A stretch of DNA of 64,000 bases from Granulicella sapmiensis (GTDB taxonomy: Bacteria > Acidobacteriota > Terriglobia > Terriglobales > Acidobacteriaceae), in NCBI GenBank assembly GCA_026225395.1, contig JAMFSR010000016.1, positions 1 through 64,000 on the forward strand, read 5' to 3'. Position 1 is the stretch's first letter; the number at the start of each line of letters is the position of its first letter. This document shows, piece by piece, positions 34,700-52,319 of the stretch. The position numbers and the translations under genes are program-made. The notes under the pieces are model-generated. The model was not told where the DNA came from and made no database searches. It worked only from the letters and a program-made list of their open reading frames with translations.

Positions 34700-36085
34700 C
34701 TAGAAGTGGATCATGCCGAAGGCGTGCTTGAGGCCGAAGCAGACGGCGATCATGCAGGCGAAGATGCAGGTCAGGACGAGATCCTGAAAGAGCGGGCGGA
34801 TGCGTTCTCTTGTGGCGCCGTACTGGATGACGATGTAGAGCGGAAAATCGCCGGCGGCTACAGCGATGACTGCGCCGTGTATGCCCCAATAGGCAAAGGC
34901 AACGCGGATGCCGACGATGACGGCCACGCAATACAGGGCATTGCCGAGCGCGTTGTAACGGGGCTTTCCGAGTGAGAAGAGGACGGGCGCAACGGTCTGG
35001 TAAAGAAGGGTATTCCACAAGCCAAGCGCAAGGATGGGGATCATCCAAGCGCCTTCGTGATAGGCGGGCTTGTAGAGCTTGAGGATCAGGAGGTTTCCCC
35101 AGGTGACCATGATGCTGAGGAGAGCGCCGCCGGCTACGAGGACCATGAAGCGATAGCGGAGGAACTTGTCGCGGAAGTCTTCGAGTGGGAGGTCGATGAT
35201 CTTGGCGATGAAGGGATAGAAGACGCGCTGGCCGAGGGCGACGATGATCTGGCGTGGCATGTCGGACAACTGGTAGGCGATGCCGTAGATGCCGAGCAGG
35301 GCAAAGGGAATGAGGCGGCCGAGGACGAGGCGGTCGGCCTGTGCGGCGAAGAAAAAGAAGGCTGTTCCGAGCAGTATCCATTTGCCGAAGTGAACGATGC
35401 TGTCGATCGCGGACTTGTCCCAGCCGAAGGAGGCGCGCGGCCCGGGCGTGACGCGAGGGATGTGGCTGAGGCAAAAGCGGTAGATGGTTCCGGCGATCTG
35501 GCCGCCGATGATGGCCCAGACCGAGGGGTAGAGCTTCGCCCAGACGATGGTGGTGATCAGCGAGACGACGGCCATGGAGAAGTCGATGGCGAAGAGCCGC
35601 TTGACGCCCATGTGGCGCGAGAGGGTGAGCAGGTTGGTGCTGTTGAAGCCGCTCAACAAGGTGCAGAGGCCGAGGACGGGAATCAGCGCGATCAACTCGC
35701 GATCGTGATAGAAGACCGATAGCGGCCAGGCGACGAGGAGCGCGATGATCCAGAGACCGACGCCGCGGAGTGCCTGCAGCGAGAAGGCCGTGTTTAGGAA
35801 AAGCGGATCGTCGCCGCGCGGGGACTGGATAACGCTGGGGACGAGGCCGATGTCGGAGAGCAGGTTGATGCCCATGATCAGCGTGGCGACGAGCGTCATC
35901 TCACCGAAGTAAGCGGGCAGCAGAAGGCGAGTGAGGACGAGGCTGCTGACGACGCGCAGTCCAGTTCCCGAACCGTACTCCAGGATGGACCAGAAGGCAG
36001 CGCGAAGGGCTTTATTTTCGAGCGCACCAAGGGGTCGGGCTTGCTGAGGCACAGTCTCCGGGCTGGGTTCCAATTGCATTTCCAT
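34700..36085 (-). CDS. Wzx-like lipopolysaccharide/exopolysaccharide flippase
   Basis: The protein has 461 residues and about 12-14 membrane helices, of the MATE/MOP polysaccharide transporter superfamily (RfbX/Wzx and WzxC types). The N-terminal ALRAAFWSILEYGSGTGLRV and TRLLLPAYFGEMTLVATLI are typical of WzxC-type proteins, as is LSDIGLVPSVIQ. It would move the undecaprenyl-diphosphate-linked repeat across the inner membrane for the polymerase at 32193. The gene is on the minus strand, and its upstream gap holds a second copy of the GACGTATATA motif. An alternative ATG two codons downstream is possible. Confidence 0.9.
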   Translation of the reverse strand: MEMQLEPSPETVPQQARPLGALENKALRAAFWSILEYGSGTGLRVVSSLVLTRLLLPAYFGEMTLVATLIMGINLLSDIGLVPSVIQSPRGDDPLFLNTAFSLQALRGVGLWIIALLVAWPLSVFYHDRELIALIPVLGLCTLLSGFNSTNLLTLSRHMGVKRLFAIDFSMAVVSLITTIVWAKLYPSVWAIIGGQIAGTIYRFCLSHIPRVTPGPRASFGWDKSAIDSIVHFGKWILLGTAFFFFAAQADRLVLGRLIPFALLGIYGIAYQLSDMPRQIIVALGQRVFYPFIAKIIDLPLEDFRDKFLRYRFMVLVAGGALLSIMVTWGNLLILKLYKPAYHEGAWMIPILALGLWNTLLYQTVAPVLFSLGKPRYNALGNALYCVAVIVGIRVAFAYWGIHGAVIAVAAGDFPLYIVIQYGATRERIRPLFQDLVLTCIFACMIAVCFGLKHAFGMIHF

Positions 36086-36271: not shown

Positions 36272-37507
36272 CTATGCCGCTTTGGCCGCAACGCGAGCGT
36301 ATACCTGTCGCCAGTCCCGGATGATGTCCGACCAGAGGAATCCTTTGGTGAGAGCGCGGGCGCGGGCGTTGATGGACATCTGCTCGGCGAGATCGCCGTC
36401 TTCCGCCAACAGATCCATGGAGGCTGCTAGCTCGTTGATGACGTGCTCTTCGCTGGTGGGCTCGATGAGGATGCCGGTGTCTGGAGTGACGAGCAGTGAT
36501 GGGCCGCCCCAGTCGCAGGCGATGACGGGCAGGCCCTGGATCATGGCTTCCTGCACGACGATGCCGTTGGCTTCGGCGAGCGAGGGAAAGACGAAGGCAC
36601 GGTACTGGCGGAGCATTTCGGCGAGTGCGGTGTGGTCCGGGACCCACTCGATGAAGCGAACGCGGTCTTCAAGGTGCAGGGTGGCAACGAGCGCGCGTAG
36701 GTTGGGGAGTTCGGGGCCGCGGCCGATGATGTCGAGCTCGATGGGGTTGCGGGTGCGGGTGAGGCTCTTGATGATGAGGTCGGTGCCTTTGTGCTCGACG
36801 AGGCGGCCGTTGTGAAAGAAGCGGAGATTGACGCCGGAGTGGGTGATGCGCGGCGTGTCGTTGAGCCGGTTCTGGACGCCGCTGTCGATGGAGTCGACGA
36901 ACTGATCGTCGCGGCAGCCGGCCATGCGGAGAGAGTCGTACGTGCGCTGGCCGCCGGCGACGAGCAGGGCATTCGCTTTGCGCTTGCCGGAGAAGCTGAA
37001 CTTATGCAGGAACTGTGCGAACGGGTGCAACCAGCGCCGGATTTTGTAGGCGAGTTTTTCGCGATGATAAAAGGCCGGCGGGTAGTGGATGTTGCCGTTG
37101 ATGGGGCCGATGACGACCTTCGCGCCGGGGACCGTGGGATAAGGAAGGATCGGGGAAACCGGCGAGGTGAAGTGAACGACGGCGCCGGGATTCTGCTTGA
37201 GAAGCTGCTGCGCTTTTTTCGCGGCTGAGCGCATGAAGATGAAGTTCAGAAGCTGCTCAAAGAGCTTGGCGCGGTAGAGGAGCTTTTCGAGGAGCGTGTC
37301 CGGGATATAGGTGACGTGCATCTGGGGGAAGCTGCGGTCGAGCTCCAGTCGGGCGCGCTCGTGGGTGATCTGATGGACGGGGACGCCTTGTTTGTCGAGC
37401 TCGAGATAGATCTGGAGCGCCTTGATGGCTTCGCCGCCCATCTGCTCGGAGACGTTGGGAGCGATCAGAAGGACCTCAAAGGGCGGGACTGCGGTCTCAG
37501 CGGGCAT
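36272..37507 (-). CDS. GT4 glycosyltransferase
   Basis: The protein is 411 residues from the ATG at 37507, chosen because the fold starts there (FEVLLIAPNVSEQMGGEAIKAL, the GT4 acceptor loop). The open frame extends 52 codons further upstream without similarity to the family, and no start has a clear RBS, so the N-terminus is uncertain. The C-terminal half has LRFFHNGRLVEHKGTDLIIKSL, IEWVPDHTALAEMLRQYRAF and VFPSLAEANGIVVQEAMIQGLPVIACDWGGP, the conserved E-x7-E donor-binding region. It is probably a cytoplasmic glycosyltransferase adding a sugar to the repeat unit. It is divergent from the nonribosomal peptide operon, with 325 bp between them. Confidence 0.88.
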   Translation of the reverse strand: MPAETAVPPFEVLLIAPNVSEQMGGEAIKALQIYLELDKQGVPVHQITHERARLELDRSFPQMHVTYIPDTLLEKLLYRAKLFEQLLNFIFMRSAAKKAQQLLKQNPGAVVHFTSPVSPILPYPTVPGAKVVIGPINGNIHYPPAFYHREKLAYKIRRWLHPFAQFLHKFSFSGKRKANALLVAGGQRTYDSLRMAGCRDDQFVDSIDSGVQNRLNDTPRITHSGVNLRFFHNGRLVEHKGTDLIIKSLTRTRNPIELDIIGRGPELPNLRALVATLHLEDRVRFIEWVPDHTALAEMLRQYRAFVFPSLAEANGIVVQEAMIQGLPVIACDWGGPSLLVTPDTGILIEPTSEEHVINELAASMDLLAEDGDLAEQMSINARARALTKGFLWSDIIRDWRQVYARVAAKAA

Positions 37508-37737
37508 AGGCGGGTTCCGGGTTGGTTGTAGTTCTGAAGGTAATGCGTTCCTAATGACTAGCCGATATGGATCTATATTCGTTTCAACACTGTAGACGGT
37601 AAGTCGCATTTTCTGAAACAAGTGCTGGATGATCATGATCTTACGGATTGAGCACGGCCGCAATAGATCGCTGGTTGCAACGGTGATTCCTTATGTGCAG
37701 GATCGCTCTAAAAGTGGGATAGCTTTATCGCCGTCTA

Positions 37738-37832: not shown

Positions 37833-39623
37833 ATGTTAGCCGAGCTTCTCGTTTCTGAAAGAATACGTGCGATTGCGAGCGACACTGTCGCGCTGCGAGA
37901 TTCCGCCGGCTCATTGAGCTATGGTGAGCTGAACCGAAGTGCCGATGGCCTGGCGAGCCACCTGCAATCGCTTGGGGTTGCAACTGGAAGCTCGGTTGCG
38001 ATCTGCCTGCCGCGGTCGTTTGCCCAGATTGTGGCGGAGCTGGCTGCTTTGAGGGCAGGCGCGGCGTTTGTGCCGATCGATCCCGCGTGGCCCGATGAAC
38101 GAGTGCAGCATATCGTTGCCGATTCTGCCGCCCCGGTTTTTATCGCCCCGTCCAGTCTTACGAGCCGCATTTCGGTGAAGGCCACACCGCTGGATGTTTC
38201 CGAGTGGCCGGCTGCGGATGCCCCCGTCTCAGGTGTTGCGGTCTCCGGGAGTGATCTTGCGTACATCATCTACACGTCCGGCTCGACGGGCGTGCCGAAG
38301 GGTGTCGAGATTACGCACGCGAATCTGAATCACCTGATCGACTGGCACCTGGAAGAGTTCAATGTAAGCGCTTCCGACCATGCCACACATGTGGCTGGGC
38401 TGGGGTTCGATGCGGCGGTGTGGGAGATATGGCCGTATCTTTCGGTGGGAGCTTCGATCTCGCTGGCGGATGAAACGGTGCGGGTCGATCCGGCGATGCT
38501 ACAGCGGTGGATTGTCGAGCGCGGTGTCACAATTTCTTTTGTGCCGACGCCGGTAGCCGAGCCGATGCTCGCAATGGAGTGGCCGGCAACAACGCAGATG
38601 CGCTTCCTGTTGACCGGCGGGGATACGCTGCACACGAGGCCGAAGAGCAAGCTTCCGTTCCGGCTGGTGAATAACTACGGGCCTACGGAATGCACTGTGG
38701 TTGCGACCTCCGGCGAGGTGATGGATGGCGCGGAGGGTCTGCCTTCGATCGGCAAGGCGATCAAGGGCACGATGGTGTATCTGCTGGATGAAGCGATGCA
38801 GCCGGTGGCGGATGGCAAGGTCGGCGAGATGTACCTCGGCGGTCGGGGCGTTGGGCGAGGCTATCGCAATCTGCCGGAACAAACAGCGAAGAGCTTTCTG
38901 GCCGATCCCTTTTCGCAGGACGGCGGACGGATGTATCGCACGGGCGATATGGCGAAGCTGCTGCCGGATGGGCAGATTGCCTTCCTTGGACGCGTCGATA
39001 GCCAGGAGAAGATTCGCGGCAACAGGATCGAGCTCGACGAGATTGTCAGTGTGCTGCATCGCCATGAGGGTGTTGCATTCAACGTGGTTGTGGCGAGCCA
39101 GGATCCTGTGCAGGAGAAGCACTTGATTGCGTATGTGCTGGTGACTGAAGGCGCTTCGCTGACGTCGAGAGAGCTACAGGAGTTCGCGGCGACGGCGCTG
39201 CCGAGCTATATGATTCCGTCGAAGTTTGTACGGCTTTCCGGTCTGCCGCTTTCGACGAACGGAAAGATCGATCGCCATGCTTTGCCTTTGCCGACGGAGC
39301 AGAACGTGCTTCCGGAAGCCGCGTCTCGTGAGCCGAAGTCTGATTTGGAAGCGGCTCTGCTTGCGCTGGTGCGCGAGTTGCTGAAGACCGATGACGTTGG
39401 GGTGGAGGATGATTTCTTCCTGGTGGGCGGGCATTCGTTGCTGGGAACGCAGCTTGTGTTGCGTGCGCGCGAACGCTTCGGCGTGATGCTTACGCTGCGC
39501 GATCTCTTTGAGGCTGCAACCGTGGAAGGCCTGGCCATACATATTGAAGAGCTGATCTTCAAAGAAATCGACGCCATGAGTGAGGAAGATGCAGTGCGCC
39601 TGACGTTGGGTGACGCCGGATGA
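37833..39623 (+). CDS. Stand-alone NRPS adenylation-carrier didomain, leucine code
   Basis: The protein has 596 residues. The adenylation domain covers about 10-490: YTSGSTGVPKG 147-157 (A3), FDAAVWE 192-198, NYGPTE 281-286, YRTGD 368-372 and NGKID 476-480 with Lys478. The carrier domain (505-575) has GGHSL with Ser535 for phosphopantetheine. Reading the specificity pocket by alignment to GrsA gives D193 A194 W197 F236 L260 G262 N281 V289 V290 K478, the ten-letter code DAWFLGNVVK known for leucine. There is no condensation or epimerisation domain, so this is a loading unit. It overlaps the P450 gene by 4 bp, like the NovH/NovI type of aminoacyl-carrier plus P450 pairs. Confidence 0.93.
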   Translation: MLAELLVSERIRAIASDTVALRDSAGSLSYGELNRSADGLASHLQSLGVATGSSVAICLPRSFAQIVAELAALRAGAAFVPIDPAWPDERVQHIVADSAAPVFIAPSSLTSRISVKATPLDVSEWPAADAPVSGVAVSGSDLAYIIYTSGSTGVPKGVEITHANLNHLIDWHLEEFNVSASDHATHVAGLGFDAAVWEIWPYLSVGASISLADETVRVDPAMLQRWIVERGVTISFVPTPVAEPMLAMEWPATTQMRFLLTGGDTLHTRPKSKLPFRLVNNYGPTECTVVATSGEVMDGAEGLPSIGKAIKGTMVYLLDEAMQPVADGKVGEMYLGGRGVGRGYRNLPEQTAKSFLADPFSQDGGRMYRTGDMAKLLPDGQIAFLGRVDSQEKIRGNRIELDEIVSVLHRHEGVAFNVVVASQDPVQEKHLIAYVLVTEGASLTSRELQEFAATALPSYMIPSKFVRLSGLPLSTNGKIDRHALPLPTEQNVLPEAASREPKSDLEAALLALVRELLKTDDVGVEDDFFLVGGHSLLGTQLVLRARERFGVMLTLRDLFEAATVEGLAIHIEELIFKEIDAMSEEDAVRLTLGDAG

Positions 39624-40906
39624 CGAACGCGAGGCAGTTCGCACGAAAGAGAGAAGCCGAGTACAGCCTTTTTCAGCAGCTGAATCCTGAGGTGATGGCT
39701 GACCCTTACCCGTTGTATCGCAAGCTGCGGGAGTTCGAGCCGGTGCATTGGGATCCCTTTATGCATAGCTGGGTGGTGACGAGCTATGCAGAGTGCGTGG
39801 CTGTGCTTTCGAAGTACAAGGCCGCACGTACGCCGGCTCCGGAGTATCTGGAGGCGATGGGGCTTTCTGTTCTCGCTCCCTACGCGGCGATGATGCTGAA
39901 GCAGATCATGTTTCAGGATCCTCCTGTCCACGCGGGTATGCGAGCGATGTGTGCGATCGCGTTTACGCCGAAGCGCATAGAAAGCCTGCGCCAAAGCGCG
40001 GAAGCGATGGCCAAAGGATTGATCGATCGCATCGTCGATCGCGGTGGAAGAATGGACGTGGTTGCGGATTTTGCGGTGCCGTTTCCGTCCCTGTTTCTCA
40101 CCGCGATGATGGGACTGCCGGCTTCCGATTCCTCTCAATTGAAACAATGGGCCGCCGATGTTGCCGAGCTGATTGGCAACTTTGAACACGATCCTGATCG
40201 CATCCAAAAGCTTGTGACGAGTTTGGAGCAGCTGAGGGTGTACCTGACCGAAAAGGTCATCGAGCAACGAGCGAGGCCTTGCGACGGTGTTCTTTCTGCT
40301 TTGCTCGCCGCAGAGATTGAGGGTGTACGTCTTTCAGAAGAAGAGATTGTGGCCAACGCGGTTCTCATCTGTTCCGGCGCTCTGGAAGAGCCGGCAAATC
40401 TTATTAGCTGCGGCATGTTCTCGTTGTTGCAGCGGCCAGAGGCTCTGGCGCAGCTGAGGGAGCATCCAGAGATTGCTCAAACAGCTGTTGAGGAGCTGCT
40501 GCGTTTTGAGTCGCCAACCCAGCACACGGGACGCTTGGCGCCAGAGGACGTGGTTCTGGGTGGAAAGCAGATCCGCAAGGGCGACCTGGTAACGGCAGTG
40601 GTTGCTGCGGCAAACCGCGATCCCTTGAGATTCCACGAGCCTGACCGGCTTGACCTGACCAGAGCAGACAACCGGCATCTGGCGTTTGGATGGGCTTCGC
40701 ACTATTGCCTTGGTGCGCCACTCGCCCGGATGACAGGCCAGGCCGCGTTTACGGCGTTGCTCCGGCGGCTTCCGTCTCTTGCCTTAATCACGAAGGAACC
40801 GCAGTGGCGTGGGATGGCGGCGCTGCGCGGGATTGTTTCGCTTGAAGTTGAATTTGATCGGAAGCTGGCTGAAACAGTGCAAACGGAGAGGACCTATGTC
40901 CAGTAA
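39620..40906 (+). CDS. Cytochrome P450, probably acting on carrier-bound amino acid
   Basis: A 428-residue bacterial soluble-type P450. The heme loop is FGWASHYCLG with Cys363 as the iron ligand; the K-helix ExxR is E292-L-L-R295, and PDRLDLTR near 341-348 is typical. The I-helix, normally A-G-x-E/D-T-T, reads SGALEEPANL (252-261), so the usual proton-relay Thr appears to be Glu or Pro. The gene starts inside the adenylation gene (ATGA overlap) and its end overlaps the next NRPS gene by 11 bp, so the three are co-translated. By analogy with NovI-type enzymes, I infer oxidation, probably beta-hydroxylation, of leucyl-S-carrier. The redox partner is not in this window. Confidence 0.9.
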   Translation: MTNARQFARKREAEYSLFQQLNPEVMADPYPLYRKLREFEPVHWDPFMHSWVVTSYAECVAVLSKYKAARTPAPEYLEAMGLSVLAPYAAMMLKQIMFQDPPVHAGMRAMCAIAFTPKRIESLRQSAEAMAKGLIDRIVDRGGRMDVVADFAVPFPSLFLTAMMGLPASDSSQLKQWAADVAELIGNFEHDPDRIQKLVTSLEQLRVYLTEKVIEQRARPCDGVLSALLAAEIEGVRLSEEEIVANAVLICSGALEEPANLISCGMFSLLQRPEALAQLREHPEIAQTAVEELLRFESPTQHTGRLAPEDVVLGGKQIRKGDLVTAVVAAANRDPLRFHEPDRLDLTRADNRHLAFGWASHYCLGAPLARMTGQAAFTALLRRLPSLALITKEPQWRGMAALRGIVSLEVEFDRKLAETVQTERTYVQ

Positions 40907-43900
40907 CACGGGCCCAAGTGCAGCAACGATGTCGGATGCCAAGCGCGCCCTGATGGCGCAGCGTCTGAAGGGGATTTCACTCGCGAAGCGGGAAGAAAGC
41001 CAGATAAAGCCTTGCGGAGCGGGTGATCGTTTTCCTATTTCGGTGGACCAGTATCGCATTTGGCTGCATGCCTCCATGCATCCGGAGATGGCGACCTATA
41101 ACGAGCCGATCACGATTCAATATCGTGGCGAGCTCGATATCGCTGTCCTGACAGAGAGCCTCAATTACTTCCTTCGCCGGCACGACGCGTGGCGCACTAC
41201 GTTTGTGATGGACAACGACGAGGTATTTCAGGTCGTTCACCCAGCGGTGAAGGTCGATCTTGAATTGTTTGATCTGACCGATCTTCTGGAAGACGAGCGT
41301 GAAGCGGAGTCGCTGAGTCTTGCCACGGAGCAGGCGCTCTCGCCTATCGATCTCACGCGGGCGCCGCTTTTTCGTGCCCTGGTGGTGCGTGCCACACCCG
41401 ACGACTATCGCCTGCATATGGTGCTCCATCACATTGTGTTCGATGGGCTATCCATCCAGGAAACTTTCATTCCCGAGCTTGCGACGATCTACGCTGCCCT
41501 GAAAGCAGGAGACGAACCCTCGCTGGCTGCGCGGACGCTGCGGTATTGCGATTACGCCGCGTGGCGGCGAGAACAGATTTCCCTGCCGTCGATGGAACGT
41601 CATATTGCTTACTGGCAGAAAGAGCTTGCCGGCGATCTGCCGGTGCTTCGGCTTCCGACGGACCGGCCACGACCGGCGGTCATCAGCCAACGCGGCGACA
41701 TAGAGACATACGCCATCTCTCGCGAACTCTCGGACTCGCTGCGAGAACTGAGCCAGGCCAACGGTGTCACGCTTTACATGACGATGCTTGCGGTGTTTCA
41801 GGTGTTGTTGTTTCGCTATAGCGGTCAGGAAGATGTGATCATCGGTGGCGGAGCCGACGGGCGCAGGCGGCCTGAGCTACACGGGATGATGGGTTACATC
41901 CTGGATACGTTTGCGGTGCGGACTCATCCTATGGGCAAGCAACCGTTCTCTGCTTTCCTTCAGGAAGTAAAGCGGGCCGTGCTTGGGGGATTGGCTGCCG
42001 CGGAAGTCCCCTTCGACCGCGTGGTGCAGGCCGTGGGGATCAAGCGCAACTTGAGCCATCACCCGATCTTCCAGACGTTCTTTTCGTTTCTGGCGAGCAG
42101 CGGAAACCTTCCCGCCGGGTGGGAGATGAAGCCGAAGCTGGTGAACGGCGGTGCAACCAAGTTCGATATCTACCTGGAAGTGGAGGAATTGGAGACACAC
42201 ACCGCGGTGTGCTGCATCTACAGCACCGACCTCTTCGATGCCGATACGATTAAGCGGATGTTTGGGCATTGGACCACCCTGCTCCGGGCCGTATGCGACA
42301 CACCGGAGTGTGCTCTCGCCGATCTCCCGGTGCTGACCGCGGAAGAGCAGGAGTTGATGCTTGTCCGCTGGAACGAGCAGGCTGTGGATGTTCCGGCGAC
42401 GACAATGCATGGCCTTGTGGAAGAGCAGGTGCAGCGCACGCCGAATGATGTAGCCGTGAAGTTCGAAGACGTGACCTGGACCTATGCAGAGCTGGACCGT
42501 CAGGCGGAGAGGCTCGCAACGCATCTGCGCCGGGCCGGCGCCGGGCCGAAGACCCTGGTAGCTATATGTATCGATCGCTCGGAGTTGTTGATTGCAGGGC
42601 TGCTTGCGATTTTGAAGACAGGCGCCGCCTATCTGCCGCTCGATCCCGGGACTCCGCACTCCCGCATTGCACTCTGCCTGGAAGATGCCGAGCCTGCGAT
42701 TGTGATGACGCAAGGTTCCGTAGTGAGCGATCTGCCGGACATTGGGGCAAAGGTTCTTTTGATGGAAGACCTCGTCGTTGCTGACCCGCTCCTCGGCAAG
42801 CCCGGCGAAGCGAAGAGTGACGCAGCCGGGCCTGAAGATACGGCGTACATCATTCATACGTCCGGCAGTACGGGGCGTCCCAAGGCCGTAGAGCTTTGCC
42901 ATGGCGCCGTCGTAAACCTGCTGCTATCCATGCAGCGCGAGCCAGGCTTCAAGGCCACCGACACGCTGGTTGCGGTGACGACCGTGTCGTTCGACATCGC
43001 TGTGCTTGAGTTGTTCCTTCCGCTCATCACGGGTGGGAAGGTTGTTATCGCAAGCCGAAGCGTGGCGTCGGATCCCTACAGCCTGGCAGCACTGATTGAG
43101 ACTACTGGCTGCACAGTGATGCAGGCGACCCCCGCAACCTGGCGAGCCCTGATGGCGATCGATTGGCAGGGCCGGCCGGAGATGAAGGTGCTCTGCGGCG
43201 GCGAAGCGCTCACGCGAGATCTGGCCGATAAGTTGTTGGTGCGCAAGCTCGAGCTATGGAACGTCTACGGTCCTACCGAAACCACGATCTGGTCGACTGT
43301 AAGGCGTGTGCTTCCTGTCACCGGCATTGTTCCCGTTGGCAGGCCGATTGCGAATACGACAACGTACATCCTGGATAGCAACGAACAGCCGGTTCCCATC
43401 GGAGTGACGGGTGAGTTGTATATAGGGGGCGTGGGATTGGCGAAGGGCTATCGTGGCCAGCCTGAGTTGACTGCGCAAAAATTTGTGTGGCCGGCGATCA
43501 CAAAGGGTGAGCGGGTTTACCGCACGGGCGACTATGCCGTGTATCGCGCCGATGGAACGATTGAGTGCCAGGGACGAGCCGATAACCAGGTGAAGATTCG
43601 CGGGCACCGGATTGAACTTGAAGAAGTGGAGCTGCATCTCAATGCGCATCCGCAGATTGCGTCCGCCGCTGCAAGAATCTGGGAGGATCAGGTCGGCGGG
43701 AACCGTTTGAGTGCCTACTTTGTAGCCAAGGACGGTATGGCGCCGGGCATCGCGCAGATACGCGACTTCCTCCGGGACCGCTTGCCGGAGTATATGATTC
43801 CTTCGGACTTTTCGGTTCTTGAAGCGATGCCGCTGACCTCGAACGGCAAGATGGACCGCAAGGCGCTGCCTGCCCCAAACGATCCAACGGCGGCGCGGCC

Positions 43901-45050
43901 GGCATCCGCGCAGAGCCTGAATGAGGAAGAGCGAAGGCTGGCGAAGATCTGGCAGGACGTGCTCGGCGTGCAGTCGATTGGGAAGGAGGATAGCTTCTTC
44001 GATCTCGGGGGGCACTCGCTTCTGTTGGTCGTTCTGTTCGCGCGCATCAACAAGGAGTTCGCTTCCAATCTTCCGATCACTTCAATTTTCGACGCGCAAA
44101 CGCTGTCGGCGCTGGCAAAAGTGCTGAAGGAAAAGATTCGCATCTCCTCGCTCGTCCCGGTTCAGACGGCGGGCAGCAAGCCACCACTGTTCATGGCGCA
44201 CTCCTACTTGCTGTACCACGGGCTATCAAGCGCACTCGGGACCGATCAGCCTTTCTACGGCTTGAGGGAACTGGAGCAGGATGACAATCTGTCTATTGAA
44301 GAGCGAGCACGGCGTTATATCGCTGACATGCGCAACGTTCAACCACGTGGCCCGTATCGAGTTGCCGGGTGGTGTGCCGCAGGGCCGTTGGCCGTGGAGA
44401 TCGCCCGTCAACTGCCGCTGGCAGGCGACGAAGTAGCCATGCTGCTGCTCTTTGATTCATGGCTTCCGGGCTATCCGGAAAGTCTTGCGAAGATTGCTAG
44501 AAGCAAGTCGTTTGCGAAGGTGATCAAGGGCAAGATCGCGGGGCTCAAAATCCGCTTCTCCGGGATGACGACGATTCAACGGGTGGCGCACCTGGCGCAT
44601 ATCATCCGGCGGCGGCTCAAGCAGAGCCGCGATGATTTCTATGTTCGCAACTGGGCGCAAATGAATAATCTTTCTCAAAAGCTGAATGTTCCGCTTCCGC
44701 AGTTCATGCACAACACGACCATCCAAACGTTTGCGGCGATGAGAGAGTTTCGAGCGGAAAGCATGCCGGTGCGGATGACGCTGGTCCGCGCTACCGAGTC
44801 TGTTCGGTTTGAAGGGGCGTCCCTTTCGTGTGGATGGGAGGCCGTCGCGGCTTCCGGAATTGACGTACTGTGGGCGCCGGGCGACCACGAGACAATGTTT
44901 CGCGGAACGAACCTGCAGGTAACAGCGCAGCTCGTCAAGCAGTCGCTGGCGGCGATTGAAACAAACGACACCGCAAAGCCGGGCGGCAGGGCGCAGCAGC
45001 GGCGCGAGACGAGACAGGCACTGGTGGGTAGCGGGGCGTTTGATAAATGA
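40896..45050 (+). CDS. NRPS module: condensation-adenylation-carrier-thioesterase
   Basis: The protein is 1384 residues from the ATG at 40896 (GGAGAGG 4 nt before). The condensation domain is about 45-480, with H178-H-I-V-F-D-G184 intact. The adenylation domain is about 500-990 (HTSGSTGRPKA, YGPTETTIW, YRTGDY, NGKMDRK); its pocket reads D700 I701 L704 Q743 C767 G769 V790 I798 W799 K985, close to DILQLGLIWK codes that I recall for glycine, but not exact. The carrier domain is 1005-1080, with Ser1041 in GGHSL. The thioesterase is about 1095-1355, with G-W-Cys1160-A-A-G instead of GxSxG, Asp1187 and His1331 in GDH. It would join the first residue to a second and release the product by Cys chemistry. 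Confidence 0.95.
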   Translation: MSSNTGPSAATMSDAKRALMAQRLKGISLAKREESQIKPCGAGDRFPISVDQYRIWLHASMHPEMATYNEPITIQYRGELDIAVLTESLNYFLRRHDAWRTTFVMDNDEVFQVVHPAVKVDLELFDLTDLLEDEREAESLSLATEQALSPIDLTRAPLFRALVVRATPDDYRLHMVLHHIVFDGLSIQETFIPELATIYAALKAGDEPSLAARTLRYCDYAAWRREQISLPSMERHIAYWQKELAGDLPVLRLPTDRPRPAVISQRGDIETYAISRELSDSLRELSQANGVTLYMTMLAVFQVLLFRYSGQEDVIIGGGADGRRRPELHGMMGYILDTFAVRTHPMGKQPFSAFLQEVKRAVLGGLAAAEVPFDRVVQAVGIKRNLSHHPIFQTFFSFLASSGNLPAGWEMKPKLVNGGATKFDIYLEVEELETHTAVCCIYSTDLFDADTIKRMFGHWTTLLRAVCDTPECALADLPVLTAEEQELMLVRWNEQAVDVPATTMHGLVEEQVQRTPNDVAVKFEDVTWTYAELDRQAERLATHLRRAGAGPKTLVAICIDRSELLIAGLLAILKTGAAYLPLDPGTPHSRIALCLEDAEPAIVMTQGSVVSDLPDIGAKVLLMEDLVVADPLLGKPGEAKSDAAGPEDTAYIIHTSGSTGRPKAVELCHGAVVNLLLSMQREPGFKATDTLVAVTTVSFDIAVLELFLPLITGGKVVIASRSVASDPYSLAALIETTGCTVMQATPATWRALMAIDWQGRPEMKVLCGGEALTRDLADKLLVRKLELWNVYGPTETTIWSTVRRVLPVTGIVPVGRPIANTTTYILDSNEQPVPIGVTGELYIGGVGLAKGYRGQPELTAQKFVWPAITKGERVYRTGDYAVYRADGTIECQGRADNQVKIRGHRIELEEVELHLNAHPQIASAAARIWEDQVGGNRLSAYFVAKDGMAPGIAQIRDFLRDRLPEYMIPSDFSVLEAMPLTSNGKMDRKALPAPNDPTAARPASAQSLNEEERRLAKIWQDVLGVQSIGKEDSFFDLGGHSLLLVVLFARINKEFASNLPITSIFDAQTLSALAKVLKEKIRISSLVPVQTAGSKPPLFMAHSYLLYHGLSSALGTDQPFYGLRELEQDDNLSIEERARRYIADMRNVQPRGPYRVAGWCAAGPLAVEIARQLPLAGDEVAMLLLFDSWLPGYPESLAKIARSKSFAKVIKGKIAGLKIRFSGMTTIQRVAHLAHIIRRRLKQSRDDFYVRNWAQMNNLSQKLNVPLPQFMHNTTIQTFAAMREFRAESMPVRMTLVRATESVRFEGASLSCGWEAVAASGIDVLWAPGDHETMFRGTNLQVTAQLVKQSLAAIETNDTAKPGGRAQQRRETRQALVGSGAFDK

Positions 45051-45106
45051 GCGCAGCGCAGCGCCACGCCGTAGCGCCTTGATTTCGAACGTATACTGGA
45101 CGGATC

Positions 45107-46111
45107 GTGAACCCTCTGGCATTCCACAATCAACAATTCGATGCTTCCATCATCATCATCTCGTTCAATACGAAGACGATTTTGAAGGAGTGCCTGGAAT
45201 CGGTGATTCGCGAGTCGGCCAATCTGCGGGTCGAGATATTCGTTGTCGACAATCACTCGGCGGATGGATCCGCGGAGATGGTGGAGCAGGAGTTTCCCGA
45301 TGTCCGCCTGATTCGCAGCGACGTTAACCTTGGCTTTGGCGCCGCGAATAACGTTGCCCTGGAGCAGGCGCGCGGACGATACTTTGTCCTGTTGAACTCC
45401 GACGCGTTCTTTCAGTCTTCCGCGCTGGAGCTTGCCATCCAGCATATGGATGCAACGGCCGACTGCGGGCTTGGCGGAGGTTTGCTGGTGGGTCGCGATG
45501 GCAGCTGGCAGCCGTCGGCAAGGACCTTCCACTCCTTGCTCGGAGACTTTCTTGTGCTCACTGGGCTGGCCGCCAAGTTTCCGAAGTCGAAGTTTTTTGG
45601 TGGCTTCGATCGCACATGGGCCGATGTGAAAGAAGCGGCCTCCGTGGATTGGGTTCCGGGCGCATTCTCGATTATCCGGCCCAGGGCTCTTGTAAAGTCC
45701 GGTATCTTCGATCCCGCGTTCTTCCTGTACTACGAAGAAGTCGATCTTTGTGTACGCATCAAGCAGGCCGGCTACAGCATCTGGTACTGGCCGGATATTG
45801 TCGTGGTTCACATCGGTGGAGAGTCCTCGCGGCAGTTGAAGACGCTTGAGTTCTCGTCGCAGGCGGCGCAGGTGGTGATGTGGAGAATGCGCAGCACGCT
45901 GCTGTACTACCGTAAGCATCATGGTGCGCAGGCTTACTTCGCAAAGGTGCTTGAGAATACACTGGCGCGTGTGACGGTGCTGCGCAACAAGTTTAGCAAG
46001 AGCCCTGCACGCAAAGAACGTGGCAAGCGATACAGTACTTTGATTGCGCTGATGAACCAAGCCTGGAAGGACACGCGCGGAGGGCGGGTTTCACCGCCAA
46101 GACCATGGTGA
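45107..46111 (+). CDS. GT2 glycosyltransferase, rhamnosyltransferase-like
   Basis: The protein has 334 residues and starts at GTG, 56 nt after the NRPS gene. The GT-A fold motifs are FDASIIIISFNTKTILKECL, EIFVVDNHSADGS, NLGFGAANNVAL and YFVLLNSDAFF, where NSD takes the place of the DxD, as in WbbL-like rhamnosyltransferases. FFLYYEEVDLCVRIKQAGY is the conserved acceptor/catalytic region. It probably transfers a deoxysugar in the cytoplasm. It is on the same strand as the peptide genes and overlaps the acyltransferase gene by 7 bp, so it may glycosylate the peptide or a glycan that carries it; either is inference. Confidence 0.9.
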   Translation: MNPLAFHNQQFDASIIIISFNTKTILKECLESVIRESANLRVEIFVVDNHSADGSAEMVEQEFPDVRLIRSDVNLGFGAANNVALEQARGRYFVLLNSDAFFQSSALELAIQHMDATADCGLGGGLLVGRDGSWQPSARTFHSLLGDFLVLTGLAAKFPKSKFFGGFDRTWADVKEAASVDWVPGAFSIIRPRALVKSGIFDPAFFLYYEEVDLCVRIKQAGYSIWYWPDIVVVHIGGESSRQLKTLEFSSQAAQVVMWRMRSTLLYYRKHHGAQAYFAKVLENTLARVTVLRNKFSKSPARKERGKRYSTLIALMNQAWKDTRGGRVSPPRPW

Positions 46112-46737
46112 ATCAGAAACCTCACGGCAGCTATTGGTTGAAGTCACTTCTGTTGTTGCCCATCCGCGTATGGTTATCCTTAACGTCAAAGCTGCAAAGA
46201 TCCTTCCGCCGACTTTACTCGCATGCTTCTCTTGAAAGCCAGCTGTCGACGAAGCTGCCGAAGTCTGTTGTAGTCCTGGGGCAGATGTTCGTCGATGGGA
46301 CCGGTGCTGTCGAGTTCGGAGAAGCGTGCTACCTGTATCCGGATCTGCATCTTGAGACGCGTGATGGAGCCGCGATCCGCATTGGCGATGGAGTGGTCCT
46401 CTCGCGAGGTGTTCACCTTGTGGCCATGTCCGGAATCACCATCGGCCGCGGAACGATGATTGGCGAGTACACGAGCGTTCGCGATGCGAATCATCAGCGG
46501 GACGCGAACACCCCGCTTCGTGACGCTGGTCATACGGCCAAGCCGATTGTGATCGGGAACGAAGTCTGGATTGGGCGAGGCGTCACTGTGCTTGGTGGCG
46601 TCACCATCGGCGATGGCGCTACGGTTGGCGCAAATGCCGTCGTTACGCGCGATGTATTGCCTCATACAACCGTGGGTGGAGTTCCGGCGAATCCCCTGCG
46701 GCGAAGGCCAAACCAGGATGGCGAAGATGCGCGTTAG
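46105..46737 (+). CDS. Left-handed beta-helix O-acetyltransferase (WcaF/maltose acetyltransferase-like)
   Basis: The protein has 210 residues. Hexapeptide repeats span about 60-200 (IRIGDGVVLSRGVHLVAMSG, ITIGRGTMIGEYTSVRDANH, VWIGRGVTVLGGVTIGDGAT, VGANAVVTRDVLPHTTVGGV, PANPLRR). The DANHQRD segment supplies the His expected at the catalytic site. This group transfers acetyl from acetyl-CoA to a sugar hydroxyl, usually in polysaccharide or glycolipid synthesis. Its coupling to the GT2 gene (7-bp overlap) suggests that the sugar added by that enzyme becomes acetylated. It is the last gene of the presumed peptide/glycan operon. Confidence 0.9.
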   Translation: MVNQKPHGSYWLKSLLLLPIRVWLSLTSKLQRSFRRLYSHASLESQLSTKLPKSVVVLGQMFVDGTGAVEFGEACYLYPDLHLETRDGAAIRIGDGVVLSRGVHLVAMSGITIGRGTMIGEYTSVRDANHQRDANTPLRDAGHTAKPIVIGNEVWIGRGVTVLGGVTIGDGATVGANAVVTRDVLPHTTVGGVPANPLRRRPNQDGEDAR

Positions 46738-46917
46738 GGCTTGTGAGGCGTGAACCAGCGGCGATCTTGATCCTGTGGAGTAGAGTCTATATAGTCAACG
46801 TACCGCGGAACTGCCCGTGCCCTTGATCGTTATCAACCGGGAAAGCGATAGCAAATCGGCAATCGCTTTCGGCATCCTTCAGCGTCGTTGTTGGCCATAC
46901 ATTCGACTGAGACCCGT

Positions 46918-48111
46918 GTGAACCTTCTTATCGTTGATGACGATTCAGCAACAAAAGCTCTGATGCAGGCCTGGCTCCAGAGCTCAGGTTATGCAGTCAC
47001 CTGCCTTGGCAGTGAGCATGTAACGGCCTCGACCTTCAGCGAAACCGATTACGACATTGTTCTGTGCAACTGGAATCTCACGTCCATGAGCGGCGCTGAC
47101 GTGTGCCGTCTCGTGCGTCAGGATCCGTCGTATCACTATGTGATTGCGTACTCTTCCAATGGCCGGGAACTGGACTTTGTGGAGTGTACGGCTGCGGGAG
47201 CCGACGACATCCTGAGCTCGCCGCTGAACTCTCCGCAGCTGCAAGTGCGCATCCTGGCCGCGGAACGCACGATCAATCTGCAGCAGGCCTTCGCGGAGCA
47301 GAACGCTGCCCATAAGGCGCTGAACGAAAAACTCGACCTCGCGTACCAGGCGCTGTACTCCGAGCTTCAAGCTGCATCTGAGCTGCAGTTGAGCCTGCTG
47401 CCTACGATTTCGGAGATCCATCCGAACTACACGCTGGATTGGTTGGTGCTGCCGAGCAGCTTTCTGGCAGGCGACAATCTAAACTACTTCATCATGCAGG
47501 AGCGGTATCTCATCTTCTACCACCTCGATGTGGCAGGACATGGCATTCCTTCGGCGCTGCTTTCGGTCACGCTGAATCAGCTTCTTTCGCCGCAGCCGGG
47601 AAGCCCGATGGTTCGCTTCGATCCTCAGCTGGAGCTCAAGCGGATCGTTCCGCCGGTCGAGGTGGTGAGCGAGCTCAACCGTCGTTTCCAACCGCAGGGC
47701 GACGGTTACTTCACGATGATCTATGCGGTGCTGGACACCGAAACCCATGAGATCCGGTTGTGCCAGGCAGGGCATCCCAGCCCGATTAAGATTGCCGCCA
47801 ACGGAGAGATTTCAGAGATTGGCGATGGCGGGTTTCCTGTGGGTCTATGGCCGGACATGACTTACGAAGAAACCAGGACAAACCTTATGCCGGGAGACCG
47901 GCTTGTGTTGTATTCCGACGGAGTCATTGCCTGTCTGAATGACGAACAAGTGCCATACTCGCTGGAACAATTGCAGTCTATTATTAGTAGCCAGAGCGGA
48001 AAGCCACTGAAAGATGTGCTGCAAGCCGTACAGGCAGACCTTGAGCGATGGAATCAAGGCAAAGATTTTCCCGATGATATTTCTCTTTTGATTGTTGAAT
48101 GTAAGGCGTGA
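46918..48111 (+). CDS. PP2C-type phosphatase (RsbU-like) with an Asp-less receiver domain
   Basis: The protein is 397 residues from the GTG at 46918; a TTG at 46888 is an alternative. Residues 2-115 form a receiver fold (LLIVDDDSATKALM), but the phosphoacceptor position reads VLC-Asn51-W and the conserved Lys position reads Ser101 (LSSPLN), so aspartyl phosphorylation is not expected. A coiled linker (115-160) leads to the PP2C/SpoIIE domain, with metal ligands in AGDN (Asp186), LDVAGHG (Asp204), LYSDGV and DFPDDISLL. It should dephosphorylate the STAS antagonist of a partner-switching system. It overlaps the RsbW-like gene by 4 bp. Confidence 0.9.
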   Translation: MNLLIVDDDSATKALMQAWLQSSGYAVTCLGSEHVTASTFSETDYDIVLCNWNLTSMSGADVCRLVRQDPSYHYVIAYSSNGRELDFVECTAAGADDILSSPLNSPQLQVRILAAERTINLQQAFAEQNAAHKALNEKLDLAYQALYSELQAASELQLSLLPTISEIHPNYTLDWLVLPSSFLAGDNLNYFIMQERYLIFYHLDVAGHGIPSALLSVTLNQLLSPQPGSPMVRFDPQLELKRIVPPVEVVSELNRRFQPQGDGYFTMIYAVLDTETHEIRLCQAGHPSPIKIAANGEISEIGDGGFPVGLWPDMTYEETRTNLMPGDRLVLYSDGVIACLNDEQVPYSLEQLQSIISSQSGKPLKDVLQAVQADLERWNQGKDFPDDISLLIVECKA

Positions 48112-48593
48112 CTTTTCAGCTGCGGGAAGGTTCTACATTGTCCGGAGAAGGCAAATTGGCGATATCGCTAGAGATCGAGAGCCGGCTGGACCAGGTTCGT
48201 CTTGTTCGCGCGGCCATGGCGGGCATTCTCGATCACATGAAGGTGATTGAAGCGGACATTCTTTCGCTCGAACTGGCTGTGACCGAAATCGTGAATAACG
48301 CCGTAGAACATGGCTACGCCGGCGCGGAGCACGAACAGATCAAGGTTCAGATCGAGGTCCGCGGATCGGTGGTCCGGGTTGAGATCATCGATCACGCAAA
48401 GCCATTTCCAGAAGGCGAACGCTATCGCATCGTGGAAGATATTGGCCCACTGGAAGATCCGGATGAAGAGTGGTCGCCACGCGGACACGGGCTGCAGATC
48501 GTGCGGCAGATCGTCGATTCGCTGGTGCTGGAGTGCGGCGCGACACAGAATGTGCTGACGCTTTCCAAAAACGTGGGCATACGCCCCGAGTAA
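48108..48593 (+). CDS. RsbW-like anti-sigma/serine kinase (HATPase_c_2)
   Basis: The protein has 161 residues and starts at GTG. The ATPase N-box is LAVTEIVNNAVEHGY (Glu60, Asn64, His68) and the G-box is SPRGHGLQIVRQIVDSL. This is the GHKL-type kinase of partner-switching modules, which phosphorylates a Ser on an STAS antagonist and, when free, binds a sigma factor or other target. It is translationally coupled to the PP2C gene. The matching STAS protein lies at 52710, beyond a block of glycan genes on the other strand. The target (sigma factor or enzyme) is not in this window. Confidence 0.92.
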   Translation: MTFQLREGSTLSGEGKLAISLEIESRLDQVRLVRAAMAGILDHMKVIEADILSLELAVTEIVNNAVEHGYAGAEHEQIKVQIEVRGSVVRVEIIDHAKPFPEGERYRIVEDIGPLEDPDEEWSPRGHGLQIVRQIVDSLVLECGATQNVLTLSKNVGIRPE

Positions 48594-48602
48594 CCTAACT
48601 GA

Positions 48603-50135
48603 CTACAGAGCGGCAGAGCTCTCACCTTGCTTGCGCATCGGCACGATGAGCCGCCCGAAGTATCTCAACGCAAGCATGAAGTCGTGCGACAGGCTTTGCT
48701 GCACGCTGTAATAGGCGTCCGCGAGATACAGCTGCATCTCGTCACTGACATCTGTGGACGTCGTGCCTGCTTCGGTGATCAGGCCGCTCTTGCCGCGAAG
48801 GTAGATCGCGCGCCAGTCTTCCGGCAGCGCCTCTGTTTCCTTGATCGTTCTCGGCGGCATGCCGACAAGGTTCATCTTGCCGGCGGCTACGGCGAACAGT
48901 CCTGGCAGAAACTGGCGGAGAAATGCAGACCAGCCCGCGGATCGGGGAATCGACCACGCATCTGCCCCGACGCACAGAAGCGGGCAGGTAGAAAGCGCGC
49001 CGGGCTTGTCGTCCACAGGCAGTTCTACGATTTCAATCGTTTTGAACGTAACGCCGCGGATAAGCCAATAGATCGTCGAAATCAGAAAGACGGGCAGAAA
49101 GACGATCAGCAGCACCAAAGCGAAGACCGACTGAAACGCTGTGCCGATCTTGGTGCGGCGGTTGGGGCGATCGAGGCGGCCGAGCAGAAAATTCTCCGAG
49201 ATGTCGACACTGGCGTCCAGGCGCACATTGACCAGCAGGTTGTGAGCGACGATCGCCTTGTGGACTTCGAGTGCCTCACCCACATAGCTGCCTTCGAAGA
49301 TAAGCGAGTTGTCGATCACCGTATTGGTATCGACGATGCAATCGGCGCCGACGACAGCGTACGGCCCAATCTTCACTCCCTTGCTCAGGCGAGTGTTTGT
49401 CCCGATATAGAGCGGCGGAATCAGCGTGACGGAAGGATGAATCGTGGCGTTGCGAGACACCCATATTCCAGACGAACGCTCTGTGCCGCTGATCAGAAGG
49501 CCGCGGAGTTGTTTATCGAGCAGAGCGTTTTGGCTGTTTAGCAGCCTCGAAGGCGTCGAGACGTCCAGCCAGTCGGTCGTACTCATAACGCTCGCCTCGT
49601 TCGTGGCCACCAACTGCTCAAGATATGCGCGAAGTTCGTCGAACGTATAGTTCGCGATCTCTTCGGTGATGACCATCGGAGGCAACAACGCCGTGCCGCC
49701 CCAGGCGCTTTCCGGAGCAGGCGCGGCACTCGATGAGTCGGATGAGTTGTGGAAGTTCCCGTAGTAGAGGACGGCCTTCTTCGGGTCCGGCGCGCTGAAC
49801 TCGACGCAGGGATATTGCTCCGCGTGGATCAGCACCCATGGCTCCGTGCTCAGATCCTGAATAATTTTGAGCGAACGGTACGGGCGATCGGACTGCGCCG
49901 GTAGATGGTAGCGAAAGGCGCATCCCCAGCGGTCGCCATTGCCCAGCAATGCTTCCACGCGCTCCGGCCCGTGGTCCACGATGAGCTCAATGCTGGTGAT
50001 GCCTTGCGTGACCAGGGACTCGACAATATGTTGCAGCGCGGGGCGGTCTCCCAGTGGCAGAAGCGAGGGGGAGCGCTGTGCATCCAAACCGTGCATTCCT
50101 GCAAAGGGGCCCGATAGAACGACGACTCCAATCAT
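48603..50135 (-). CDS. Nucleotidyltransferase-like/beta-helix protein fused to a PGT-like domain, both degenerate
   Basis: The protein has 510 residues. The N-terminal part (1-230) resembles sugar-phosphate nucleotidyltransferases, but the signature GGxGTRLxPLTxxRPK reads SGPFAGMHGLDAQRSPS, lacking the Arg and Lys. Residues 235-330 are left-handed beta-helix repeats (IHPSVTLIPPLYIGTNTRLS, VKIGPYAVVGADCIVDTNTV). A membrane helix (345-370) is followed by a region like the bacterial sugar transferase family (FLPGLFAVAAGKMNLVGMPP), without the catalytic Asp-Glu pair. It may be a scaffold or regulatory protein for the initiating step. It overlaps the next upstream gene by 4 bp. Confidence 0.75.
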   Translation of the reverse strand: MIGVVVLSGPFAGMHGLDAQRSPSLLPLGDRPALQHIVESLVTQGITSIELIVDHGPERVEALLGNGDRWGCAFRYHLPAQSDRPYRSLKIIQDLSTEPWVLIHAEQYPCVEFSAPDPKKAVLYYGNFHNSSDSSSAAPAPESAWGGTALLPPMVITEEIANYTFDELRAYLEQLVATNEASVMSTTDWLDVSTPSRLLNSQNALLDKQLRGLLISGTERSSGIWVSRNATIHPSVTLIPPLYIGTNTRLSKGVKIGPYAVVGADCIVDTNTVIDNSLIFEGSYVGEALEVHKAIVAHNLLVNVRLDASVDISENFLLGRLDRPNRRTKIGTAFQSVFALVLLIVFLPVFLISTIYWLIRGVTFKTIEIVELPVDDKPGALSTCPLLCVGADAWSIPRSAGWSAFLRQFLPGLFAVAAGKMNLVGMPPRTIKETEALPEDWRAIYLRGKSGLITEAGTTSTDVSDEMQLYLADAYYSVQQSLSHDFMLALRYFGRLIVPMRKQGESSAAL

Positions 50136-51562: not shown

Positions 51563-51563
51563 T

Positions 51564-52319
51564 TCAATAGGCTCCGCGGCCACTCAGGATGGCCGGAATG
51601 GTCTTGAGCAGCAGCGCTATATCGAGAAATATACTGTGGCTGTCGATATATTGCACATCGAGCGTAACCTGTTTGTCGAAGGCCAGCTCACTGCGTCCGC
51701 TCACCTGCCAGATGCAGGTAAGGCCCGGTTTTACATCTAGCCGACGGCGATCGGTCAGGGTATAGCGGGCAACTTCCTGCGGCACCGGCGGACGCGGCCC
51801 CACCAGCGACATATCTCCGCGCAGCACGCACCACAGCTGGGGAAGCTCATCGATGCTCAGCTTGCGGATAAACGCCCCGGTCTTGGTGATCCGTGGATCG
51901 CGCTTGAGCTTGAAGGTGACGCCTTCACCATGTTGATTGACCGCCAGTAGTTGTTCCTTGCGCGCTTCGGCATCCTTCACCATCGAGCGAAACTTCGGGA
52001 AGGGAAACGGCTGTCCCCACTGCCCGATGCGGGTCTGCGAGAACAGCGGAGAGCCGCCGTCCTCCAGCCATATGGCCAGGGCAACTACCAGAAATACCGG
52101 GGAAAGCGCCACCAGGACGATCGCAGACACCACGATATCCATTAGCCGCTTAAGGAATGTCGTTCCCGAAACGACGGCGACCCAGCCGAACTTCTTGAGG
52201 CCGATACGCAGGGACCGGAACCGGCGGCTGGAAGAGCGGCCGGCGTAGTCGCGGTAAAGCTCATCCACCAGAGCTTTCCGGCGCAAGCCACTTTCCCGTT
52301 TCCCTTTCACCGTTTCCAC
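51564..52319 (-). CDS. Phosphoglycosyl transferase (WcaJ/PglC-type), initiating enzyme
   Basis: The protein has 251 residues. A re-entrant membrane helix near 58-84 (LKRLMDIVVSAIVLVALSPVFL) is followed by the catalytic PGT domain: GSPLFSQTRIGQWG, KFRSMVKDAE, D157-E158-L-P-Q, RGDMSLVGPRP and DVKPGLTCIWQVSGR. All conserved positions are intact. It transfers a hexose-1-phosphate from a UDP-sugar to undecaprenyl phosphate, starting the repeat unit. It is the first gene of a three-gene minus-strand operon with the PGT-GT26 fusion and the nucleotidyltransferase-like fusion. The 390 bp upstream contain a cluster of symmetrical sites. Confidence 0.94.
   Translation of the reverse strand: METVKGKRESGLRRKALVDELYRDYAGRSSSRRFRSLRIGLKKFGWVAVVSGTTFLKRLMDIVVSAIVLVALSPVFLVVALAIWLEDGGSPLFSQTRIGQWGQPFPFPKFRSMVKDAEARKEQLLAVNQHGEGVTFKLKRDPRITKTGAFIRKLSIDELPQLWCVLRGDMSLVGPRPPVPQEVARYTLTDRRRLDVKPGLTCIWQVSGRSELAFDKQVTLDVQYIDSHSIFLDIALLLKTIPAILSGRGAY

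Follow-up and report, generated by a model that had tools for sequence, protein, structure and literature searches.

Different peptide synthetase lines in one Wzx/Wzy-type exopolysaccharide locus of Granulicella sapmiensis and its relatives

The window analyzed here is the first 64 kb of a contig of 94,935 bases (JAMFSR010000016.1) from the acidobacterium Granulicella sapmiensis, and its subject is a nonribosomal peptide synthetase (NRPS) cassette that lies inside an exopolysaccharide (EPS) locus. The main finding, from gene content and synteny, is that this one EPS locus has held two unrelated peptide lines in different species. A reading that we judge slightly better than an even bet is that the NRPS serves a conserved Wzx/Wzy-type EPS locus as an exchangeable module for peptide supply, with its peptide placed on the exported glycan.

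An earlier note on this DNA had described five genes on one strand, made of adenylation (A), carrier (T), condensation (C) and thioesterase (TE) domains, a P450 and two further enzymes. Open reading frames (ORFs) and Pfam matches, above cut-off unless stated, confirm the five, their coordinates and their spacing:

37833..39623, + strand: A-T loading protein (AMP-binding, PP-binding), A code DAWFLGNVV(K)
39620..40906, + strand: cytochrome P450 (p450), haem Cys motif FGWASHYCLG, I-helix GALEEP
40896..45050 (ATG start), + strand: C-A-T-TE protein (Condensation-AMP-binding-PP-binding-Thioesterase), A code DILQLGVIW
45107..46111, + strand: family 2 glycosyltransferase GT2a (Glycos_transf_2), a conserved EPS-locus member (42 of 300 family genomes)
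46105..46737, + strand: hexapeptide (LbH) acyltransferase (Hexapep; WbbJ-like below cut-off), often beside GT2a

All five frames are open. The A-T and P450 genes overlap by 4 bp, the P450 and C-A-T-TE genes by 11 bp and GT2a and LbH by 7 bp, with a gap of 56 nt between C-A-T-TE and GT2a. The motifs, read directly, are intact in the C domain (HHIVFDG), both T domains (GGHSL), the P450 haem site and the TE (GWCAAG). The cassette thus has the C, A and T domains of a type I NRPS with its HHxxxDG and GGHS motifs, and the P450 has the haem-thiolate motif of a carrier-dependent beta-hydroxylase. A search of the genome (43 contigs, 94.5% complete) found no condensation domain but this one.

The same locus with another synthetase

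Among 28 genomes of the genus, a relative of GT4a (E ≤1e-30), the GT4 glycosyltransferase just left of the cassette, is found in five: that of the window, G244, G140, G252 and G541. The 39 kb read in G244, G140 and G252 is the orthologous EPS locus, and in G541 parts of the locus and NRPS genes are on separate contigs. The NRPS of these four congeners consists of a Thr-code A-T protein, a KS-(AT)-ACP-aminotransferase-C-A(Gly)-T protein and a C-A(Gly)-T-TE protein (C-T-TE in G252), with the KS part of this polyketide synthase (PKS)-NRPS tested in G244, G140 and G252. No P450 was labeled in the EPS loci of the four.

Two genomes of another genus, g35, show the exchange most directly. Identities of the window proteins to G034 and G233, respectively, are 73 and 72% for GT4a, 75 and 74% for GT2a, 69 and 68% for LbH, 62 and 61% for the response regulator (RR)-SpoIIE protein, 49 and 49% for the HATPase, 53 and 52% for the LbH protein with a polyprenyl-phosphate sugar phosphotransferase (PGT)-like end (LbH-PGT), 67 and 68% for PGT itself, 63 and 63% for GT4c, 62 and 59% for GT2c, and 68 and 70% for GT2b; the WecG-PGT fusion has 61% to G233 and only a partial match of 27% in G034. 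Between GT4a and RR-SpoIIE, both genomes have a Thr-code A-T, a KS-aminotransferase-C-A-T and a C-C-T-TE protein, with 35-39% identity to the window NRPS and no P450 match in the slot, and in both the NRPS is separated from the LbH-PGT gene by RR-SpoIIE and HATPase. With the glycan and regulator genes conserved and the NRPS in the slot so distant and without a P450, we conclude that a single locus has held two unrelated peptide lines.

A further arrangement is seen in G242 and G264, where Wzx, A-T, PKS-NRPS, NRPS-TE, a glycosyltransferase-like gene, GT4a, GT4c, GT2a and LbH follow each other on one strand, with a gap of ~1.2 kb in G264. The glycosyltransferase-like gene has no Pfam match and is read as GT-A from a DPD motif. 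Such a protein of ~325 aa, with the same lack of Pfam matches and the same motif, stands beside the NRPS-TE gene in many such loci (L180:1608-2576, L182:2097-3095, L194, L195, L198, L204) and is not labeled in the window. A PKS-NRPS with an aminotransferase domain is found in the EPS loci of G034, G233, G242, G264, G035, G270, G169, G141, G160 and G215 and of the congeners G244, G140 and G252. Many of these lines start from a Thr-code A-T protein, and their product may couple Gly or Val to an unusual diamino acid.

GT2a orthologues (E ≤1e-50) from the 300 genomes of the window's family gave 43 loci, the window among them, and the stretches read span 4 to 64 kb, 14 of them under 25 kb. Labels are from profiles built from window and congener proteins, with a C domain counted anywhere, up to ~30 kb from GT2a. 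A C domain is present in 16 of the 43, and one more has KS and no C. A 4'-phosphopantetheinyl transferase (PPTase) is labeled in 14/16 loci with a C domain versus 1/27 others, and GT4a in 15/16 versus 3/27; where at least 39 kb was read, the counts are 11/13 versus 0/11 for PPTase and 13/13 versus 1/11 for GT4a. In G043 the whole 53-kb contig has the locus and lacks NRPS, PPTase and GT4a, and G183 has no C domain, yet two adenylating-enzyme matches. Between the window PPTase and the cassette, 11 kb apart, lie Wzx, Wzy and the Wzc-like gene, and PPTase homologues with 28-40% identity occur in other NRPS-bearing EPS loci, several near Wza or WecG; this placement, together with the homologues, argues against the NRPS having landed here by mere chance. 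GT2a and the LbH acyltransferase belong to the EPS locus.

The rest of the locus is as follows, with assignments by Pfam where so marked:

23527..24546, - strand: GT2 (GT2b)
24543..25064, - strand: hexapeptide transferase
25105..26142, - strand: Wza-type export protein (Pfam)
26186..26947, - strand: PPTase, likely activator of the carriers
27074..29524, + strand: CBM_4_9 protein whose N-terminus has a hydrophobic stretch, also in relatives' EPS loci
29744..31816, - strand: Wzc-like co-polymerase without Pfam match, with two TMs, a long coiled coil and a Rossmann-like end
32193..33524, + strand: Wzy_C family polymerase/ligase (Pfam)
33567..34691, + strand: GT4 (GT4b; Pfam)
34700..36085, - strand: Wzx flippase (Pfam)
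36272..37663, - strand: GT4 (GT4a), associated with NRPS-bearing EPS loci
46888..48111, + strand: RR-SpoIIE phosphatase (Pfam), in the same slot in G034
48108..48593, + strand: HATPase_c_2 anti-sigma-type kinase (Pfam)
48603..50135, - strand: LbH protein ending in a Bac_transf-like part (26.5 bits against a cut-off of 27)
50132..51583, - strand: Bac_transf and WecG/TagA fusion glycosyltransferase (Pfam)
51564..52319, - strand: PGT (Pfam)
53165..54400, + strand: GT4 (GT4c; Pfam)
54397..55602, + strand: GT2 (GT2c)

Pfam bears out the Wzx, GT4, PGT and partner-switch flanks given in the earlier note. To the left are GT4 and Wzx on the minus strand and a Wzy_C-family gene, and to the right RR-SpoIIE and HATPase on the plus strand and PGT and WecG on the minus strand; the PPTase, the Wza homologue and the Wzc-like gene are additions. 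The flippase, polymerase, initiating transferase, co-polymerase and outer-membrane export protein of a Wzx/Wzy EPS locus are all present, the Wzc member being assigned by architecture and a structure model of pLDDT 64 and pTM 0.32, and the Wzy_C Pfam family being one shared with O-antigen ligases. Plus-strand ORFs at 30263 and 31220 were rejected as genes, the overlapping minus-strand frame being the one with relatives. The SpoIIE phosphatase and HATPase kinase of a partner switch start 150 nt after the LbH acyltransferase gene; no STAS anti-anti-sigma protein appeared among the proteins scanned, with no search aimed at STAS. The CBM_4_9 protein is found in many EPS loci of the family, in several copies in some (G102, G197), and a HisKA-response regulator-nucleotide cyclase protein (57321-59072) lies at the right edge of the locus.

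A portable cassette and its predicted product

In the 300 family genomes, P450 relatives with identities of 45% or more are present at 38 other places, making 39 with the window (matches from 337 bits up, with a contig-end fragment of 49% identity, G082:C46, left out). An A-T gene is upstream at 33 of the 38 (30 with a complete Leu-type code, 3 partial) and is absent there from L040, L042, L055, L066 and L067. Outside the family, the matches listed include Alphaproteobacteria, Verrucomicrobiota, Rokubacteria, Planctomycetota, Chloroflexota, Actinomycetota and others. In the tree of P450s, that of the window, on a long end branch (0.97), joins G290 (L032; 100/97), then G169 (L033; 98/97), then Rhodospirillales and Sphingomonas (96/94). 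By C-domain identity the best relatives are likewise L032 (52%), L033 and L072, with no special link to the C domain of G034. The G290 cassette sits in a different glycan locus, with UDP-sugar dehydrogenase, Wzy_C, Wzx and GT4 and no GT2a match, and G169 carries both kinds of line, the cassette on contig C14 and a PKS-NRPS in the GT2a locus on C12. The A-T/P450/C-A-T-TE cassette is portable. The five genes as a single travelling unit, the order that the earlier note had proposed searching for, do not hold up: GT2a and LbH orthologues occur in EPS loci without the cassette, relatives of the other three occur away from a full glycan locus, and we assign the former pair to the EPS locus.

Several variants occur. 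In 12 family loci (L048, L051, L054, L056-L059, L062-L065, L071) a single open frame of about 1280-1850 aa encodes both the P450 and the NRPS module after it, and nearby is either a long PGT gene or an adenylating enzyme that stands alone (code DLFYLALVC); several of the shorter fusions have no C domain labeled. L035, L042 and L055 have a PPTase and a Wza homologue directly after the P450 gene, a second form of NRPS-export linkage. L078, a Verrucomicrobiota bin, and L084, a metagenome-assembled genome labeled Akkermansia muciniphila, have near-identical P450s and equal codes, and the Akkermansia label is doubtful.

Proximity to glycan genes was scored in 36 genomes of the family, which as relatives are not independent, using PF02397 for initiation and PF02563 for export; all counts are among the matches listed, 150 each for PGT and Wza, and carry no correction for contig ends. 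One or the other gene is within 20 kb at 24/39 P450 places versus 4/43 other NRPS clusters (Fisher 4.9e-7), these controls being drawn from 137 of 150 listed condensation matches, with the 13 weakest, mostly fragments, left out. The 24 span 11 of 19 genera, 18 of them have the gene within 10 kb, and 11 are from one genus, g7. PGT within 10 kb is seen at 15/39 places versus 0/43, and Wza alone at 5/39 versus 2/43, which is not significant. On the P450 tree the glycan label is more clustered than when shuffled, with 18 changes against a mean of 27.7 and 1 of 500 shuffles as low, the Sphingomonas "glycan" loci each being labeled on a single Wzx-family gene. The earlier note had allowed that cassettes elsewhere might always be away from glycan genes. 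That describes some Sphingomonas and Rhodospirillales loci and fails for many in the family, so neither "always near" nor "always far" can stand.

Alignment to GrsA positions gives DAWFLGNVV for the first A domain and DILQLGVIW for the second. In the excerpts of PMC12283262, Leu, Ile and Val domains have DAWFLGNVVK among their commonest codes, and DILQLGMIWK is a Gly-domain code. In part of PMC7524897, the four Leu domains of the scytocyclamide (laxaphycin) synthetases all have DAWFLGNVVK, one with a possible gap, and the products contain 3-hydroxyleucine. The window's first code is identical in 29 of 30 complete family relatives, with one letter different in the remaining one, and in 45 of 53 complete codes among the matches listed for a cross-phylum scan (58 loci, L072-L129, ten of which repeat genomes of the window's family). 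Of the eight that deviate, seven do so by one or two letters; the eighth, L109, is Thr-type, and its P450 has the I-helix GSQEDV. The second code varies among relatives, including the Gly type, DIEDIGTVI, for which we suspect a basic residue, DVWHISLVD, which we take to be Ser, and DSALIAEVW. The last of these is a His code in the portion of PMC12283262 consulted. Since the first code is nearly constant and the second variable, the cassette family is predicted to make Leu-X and the window Leu-Gly. The Leu-X line of the earlier note, inside a Wzx/Wzy-type EPS locus, is thereby upheld with Gly as X by code, and NRPS lines recur in such loci of related species.

The solved structures nearest to the window P450 are BioI and PksS. 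Both act on carrier-bound chains, BioI being known as a complex with ACP, and this is consistent with Leu being oxidized while on the first carrier. P450s usually have an acid-alcohol pair in the I-helix. Most relatives read GGQETT (GGQETTTN) and the window GALEEP (GALEEPAN; 40376-40393), in which the pair is missing; in the nearest relative, L032, the sequence is GGLEETTN, with Glu likewise replacing the usual Thr. The change may mark altered oxidation chemistry. The earlier note had an A-carrier and P450 pair making a beta-hydroxy amino acid; the pair is there, and beta-hydroxylation of Leu is plausible as a best guess rather than a finding because the usual Thr is Glu. The TE has a Cys nucleophile in place of Ser in the window and in all ten readable relatives of the subclade (L032, L033, L072 and seven Sphingomonas), as read by pattern and then again in a smaller alignment, in which Cys and His are invariant in 8/8 and the window's Asp is not. 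Its structure model has a pLDDT of 58.8 and is weak outside the core, for which the best PDB matches are NRPS/PKS-type thioesterases.

What the peptide may be for

In the pathway we propose, the A-T protein would load Leu on its carrier, the first of the line, where the P450 would oxidize it, the beta carbon being the likeliest site; the C-A-T module would join it to Gly, and the Cys-thioesterase would hand the peptide over, the carriers having been activated by the locus PPTase. The peptide might then go onto an undecaprenyl-linked repeat unit at a sugar amine or hydroxyl, or as a peptide glycosylated by GT2a, after which Wzx would flip the unit and Wzy, the Wzc-like protein and Wza would polymerize and export it. 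Related species, with another NRPS or PKS-NRPS in the slot, would put a different peptide on the same glycan. The wider claim, that this acidobacterial family runs hybrid NRPS/Wzx-Wzy pathways in which the NRPS is swapped between species like a serotype module, with peptide chemotype and sugar backbone evolving separately, is one we put forward tentatively, at a little under even.

A number of observations weigh against placing the peptide on the glycan. No enzyme for joining peptide to sugar was recognized among the proteins scanned. Neither C nor KS is labeled in 26/43 GT2a loci, 14 of these being in stretches under 25 kb. In G034 and G233 the GT2a-LbH pair is on the opposite side of GT4a, and no PPTase is seen within 60 kb. 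The glycan label changes 18 times on the P450 tree, at least 11 of them forced, and one of the 4 control clusters that lie near a glycan gene (G169:C12) is itself an EPS-locus PKS-NRPS. The cassette is a recent guest in the genus, with no P450 of at least 45% identity in 19 other genus genomes and no C-A-T-TE match above 39% in 27. The nearest cassettes outside the family, annotated from 10 ORFs of L113, 2 of L092 and 4 of L072, have ordinary neighbors of the housekeeping or oxidoreductase kind: one Sphingomonas has PdxJ/AcpS/LepB there, a second an MMPL gene and a Rhodospirillales genome luciferase-like oxygenases; a Wzx-family gene is near 5 of 7 Sphingomonas loci, with no other labeled glycan gene there.

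These surroundings suit a free small molecule, such as beta-hydroxy-Leu-Gly, its diketopiperazine or a lactone, made by a cassette that arrived in the EPS locus and uses its promoter or exporter with no chemical link to the glycan. Cyclization comes easily to dipeptidyl thioesters, and in some known pathways small rings are closed by Cys thioesterases. The close kin in Sphingomonas and Rhodospirillales form a portable unit of A-T, P450, C-A-T-TE and PPTase in a row, the PPTase mostly directly behind the TE gene and not seen in L086. We consider a free product unlikely, and it keeps about a quarter of our belief because the same cassette is found elsewhere without a glycan locus; it accounts poorly for the enrichment beside PGT and Wza genes over other NRPS of the same genomes, for unrelated NRPS lines occupying the same slot in other species, and for the co-occurrence of the locus PPTase and GT4a with NRPS.

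Less probable again is a secreted, unattached peptide signal or biofilm modulator, co-regulated with EPS through RR-SpoIIE and HATPase. Those regulators stand directly behind the cassette and the GT2-LbH pair and also beside the NRPS in G034 and G233, and the parts of PMC7293339 consulted tie N-acyl amino acid synthesis in Stieleria to EPS-associated sorting and biofilm formation, but in G242 and G264 the NRPS genes stand between Wzx and glycosyltransferases on one strand. That the cassette is decaying, making at most unmodified Leu-Gly after loss of the I-helix pair, we regard as very improbable: the GALEEP sequence and the long end branch would fit, but the frames are open, the C, T, haem and TE motifs are intact, and L032 also has E for T in an open-frame cassette.

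If a peptide is indeed placed on the glycan, a dominant soil phylum would have surface polysaccharides with designed peptides, through a glycoconjugate synthesis joining two pathways usually studied apart, and some Acidobacteria NRPS clusters mined as antibiotic genes may be cell-envelope genes. The unrelated NRPS lines in a single locus of related species provide natural comparisons.

Comparison with known systems

Units of A-T and P450 that oxidize carrier-bound amino acids are known from NikQ, NovI and skyllamycin. The window has the same stand-alone A-T followed by a P450, and differs in that the line has two residues in all, goes to a TE at once, has a changed I-helix and is in an EPS locus. 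As an EPS locus it resembles the Wzx/Wzy type, with Wzx, a Wzy_C family member, PGTs, glycosyltransferases, Wza, a Wzc-like protein and acetyltransferases, and it departs from that type in that loci of the window's kind include NRPS or PKS-NRPS genes and a PPTase. Amide-linked amino acids are found on the capsules and O-antigens of, for example, E. coli K54 and Proteus, and the expected product would be of that class, with amino-acid substituents on a surface glycan; we know of no NRPS that supplies the amino acids of those glycans.

Full-text literature on NRPS with EPS, Wzx, glycosylphosphotransferase or polysaccharide cluster, and on Acidobacteria NRPS with P450, yielded, judging by the items listed, no apparent description of NRPS genes as part of an EPS locus, including the portions consulted of PMC3102044 and PMC8692599; most subscription journals are outside that scope, so the negative is no proof of novelty. 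The nearest precedent, from the same excerpts of PMC7293339, is N-acyl amino acid synthesis linked to EPS-associated sorting. The stieleriacine N-acyl amino acid synthases, linked to PEP-CTERM and EPS, are likewise natural product genes for amino-acid compounds beside EPS genes, but they are of the acyltransferase type and their product is described there as a free small molecule (PMC7293339, in part). An adenylating enzyme in an EPS-associated system also recalls TIGR03098 (ligase_PEP_1), the exosortase-associated acyl-AMP ligase. The A-T protein scores 197.5 bits against that family, below the cut-off of 592, and 380.5 bits against TIGR01733, above the cut-off of 317; unlike TIGR03098, it has an amino-acid adenylation domain with its carrier.

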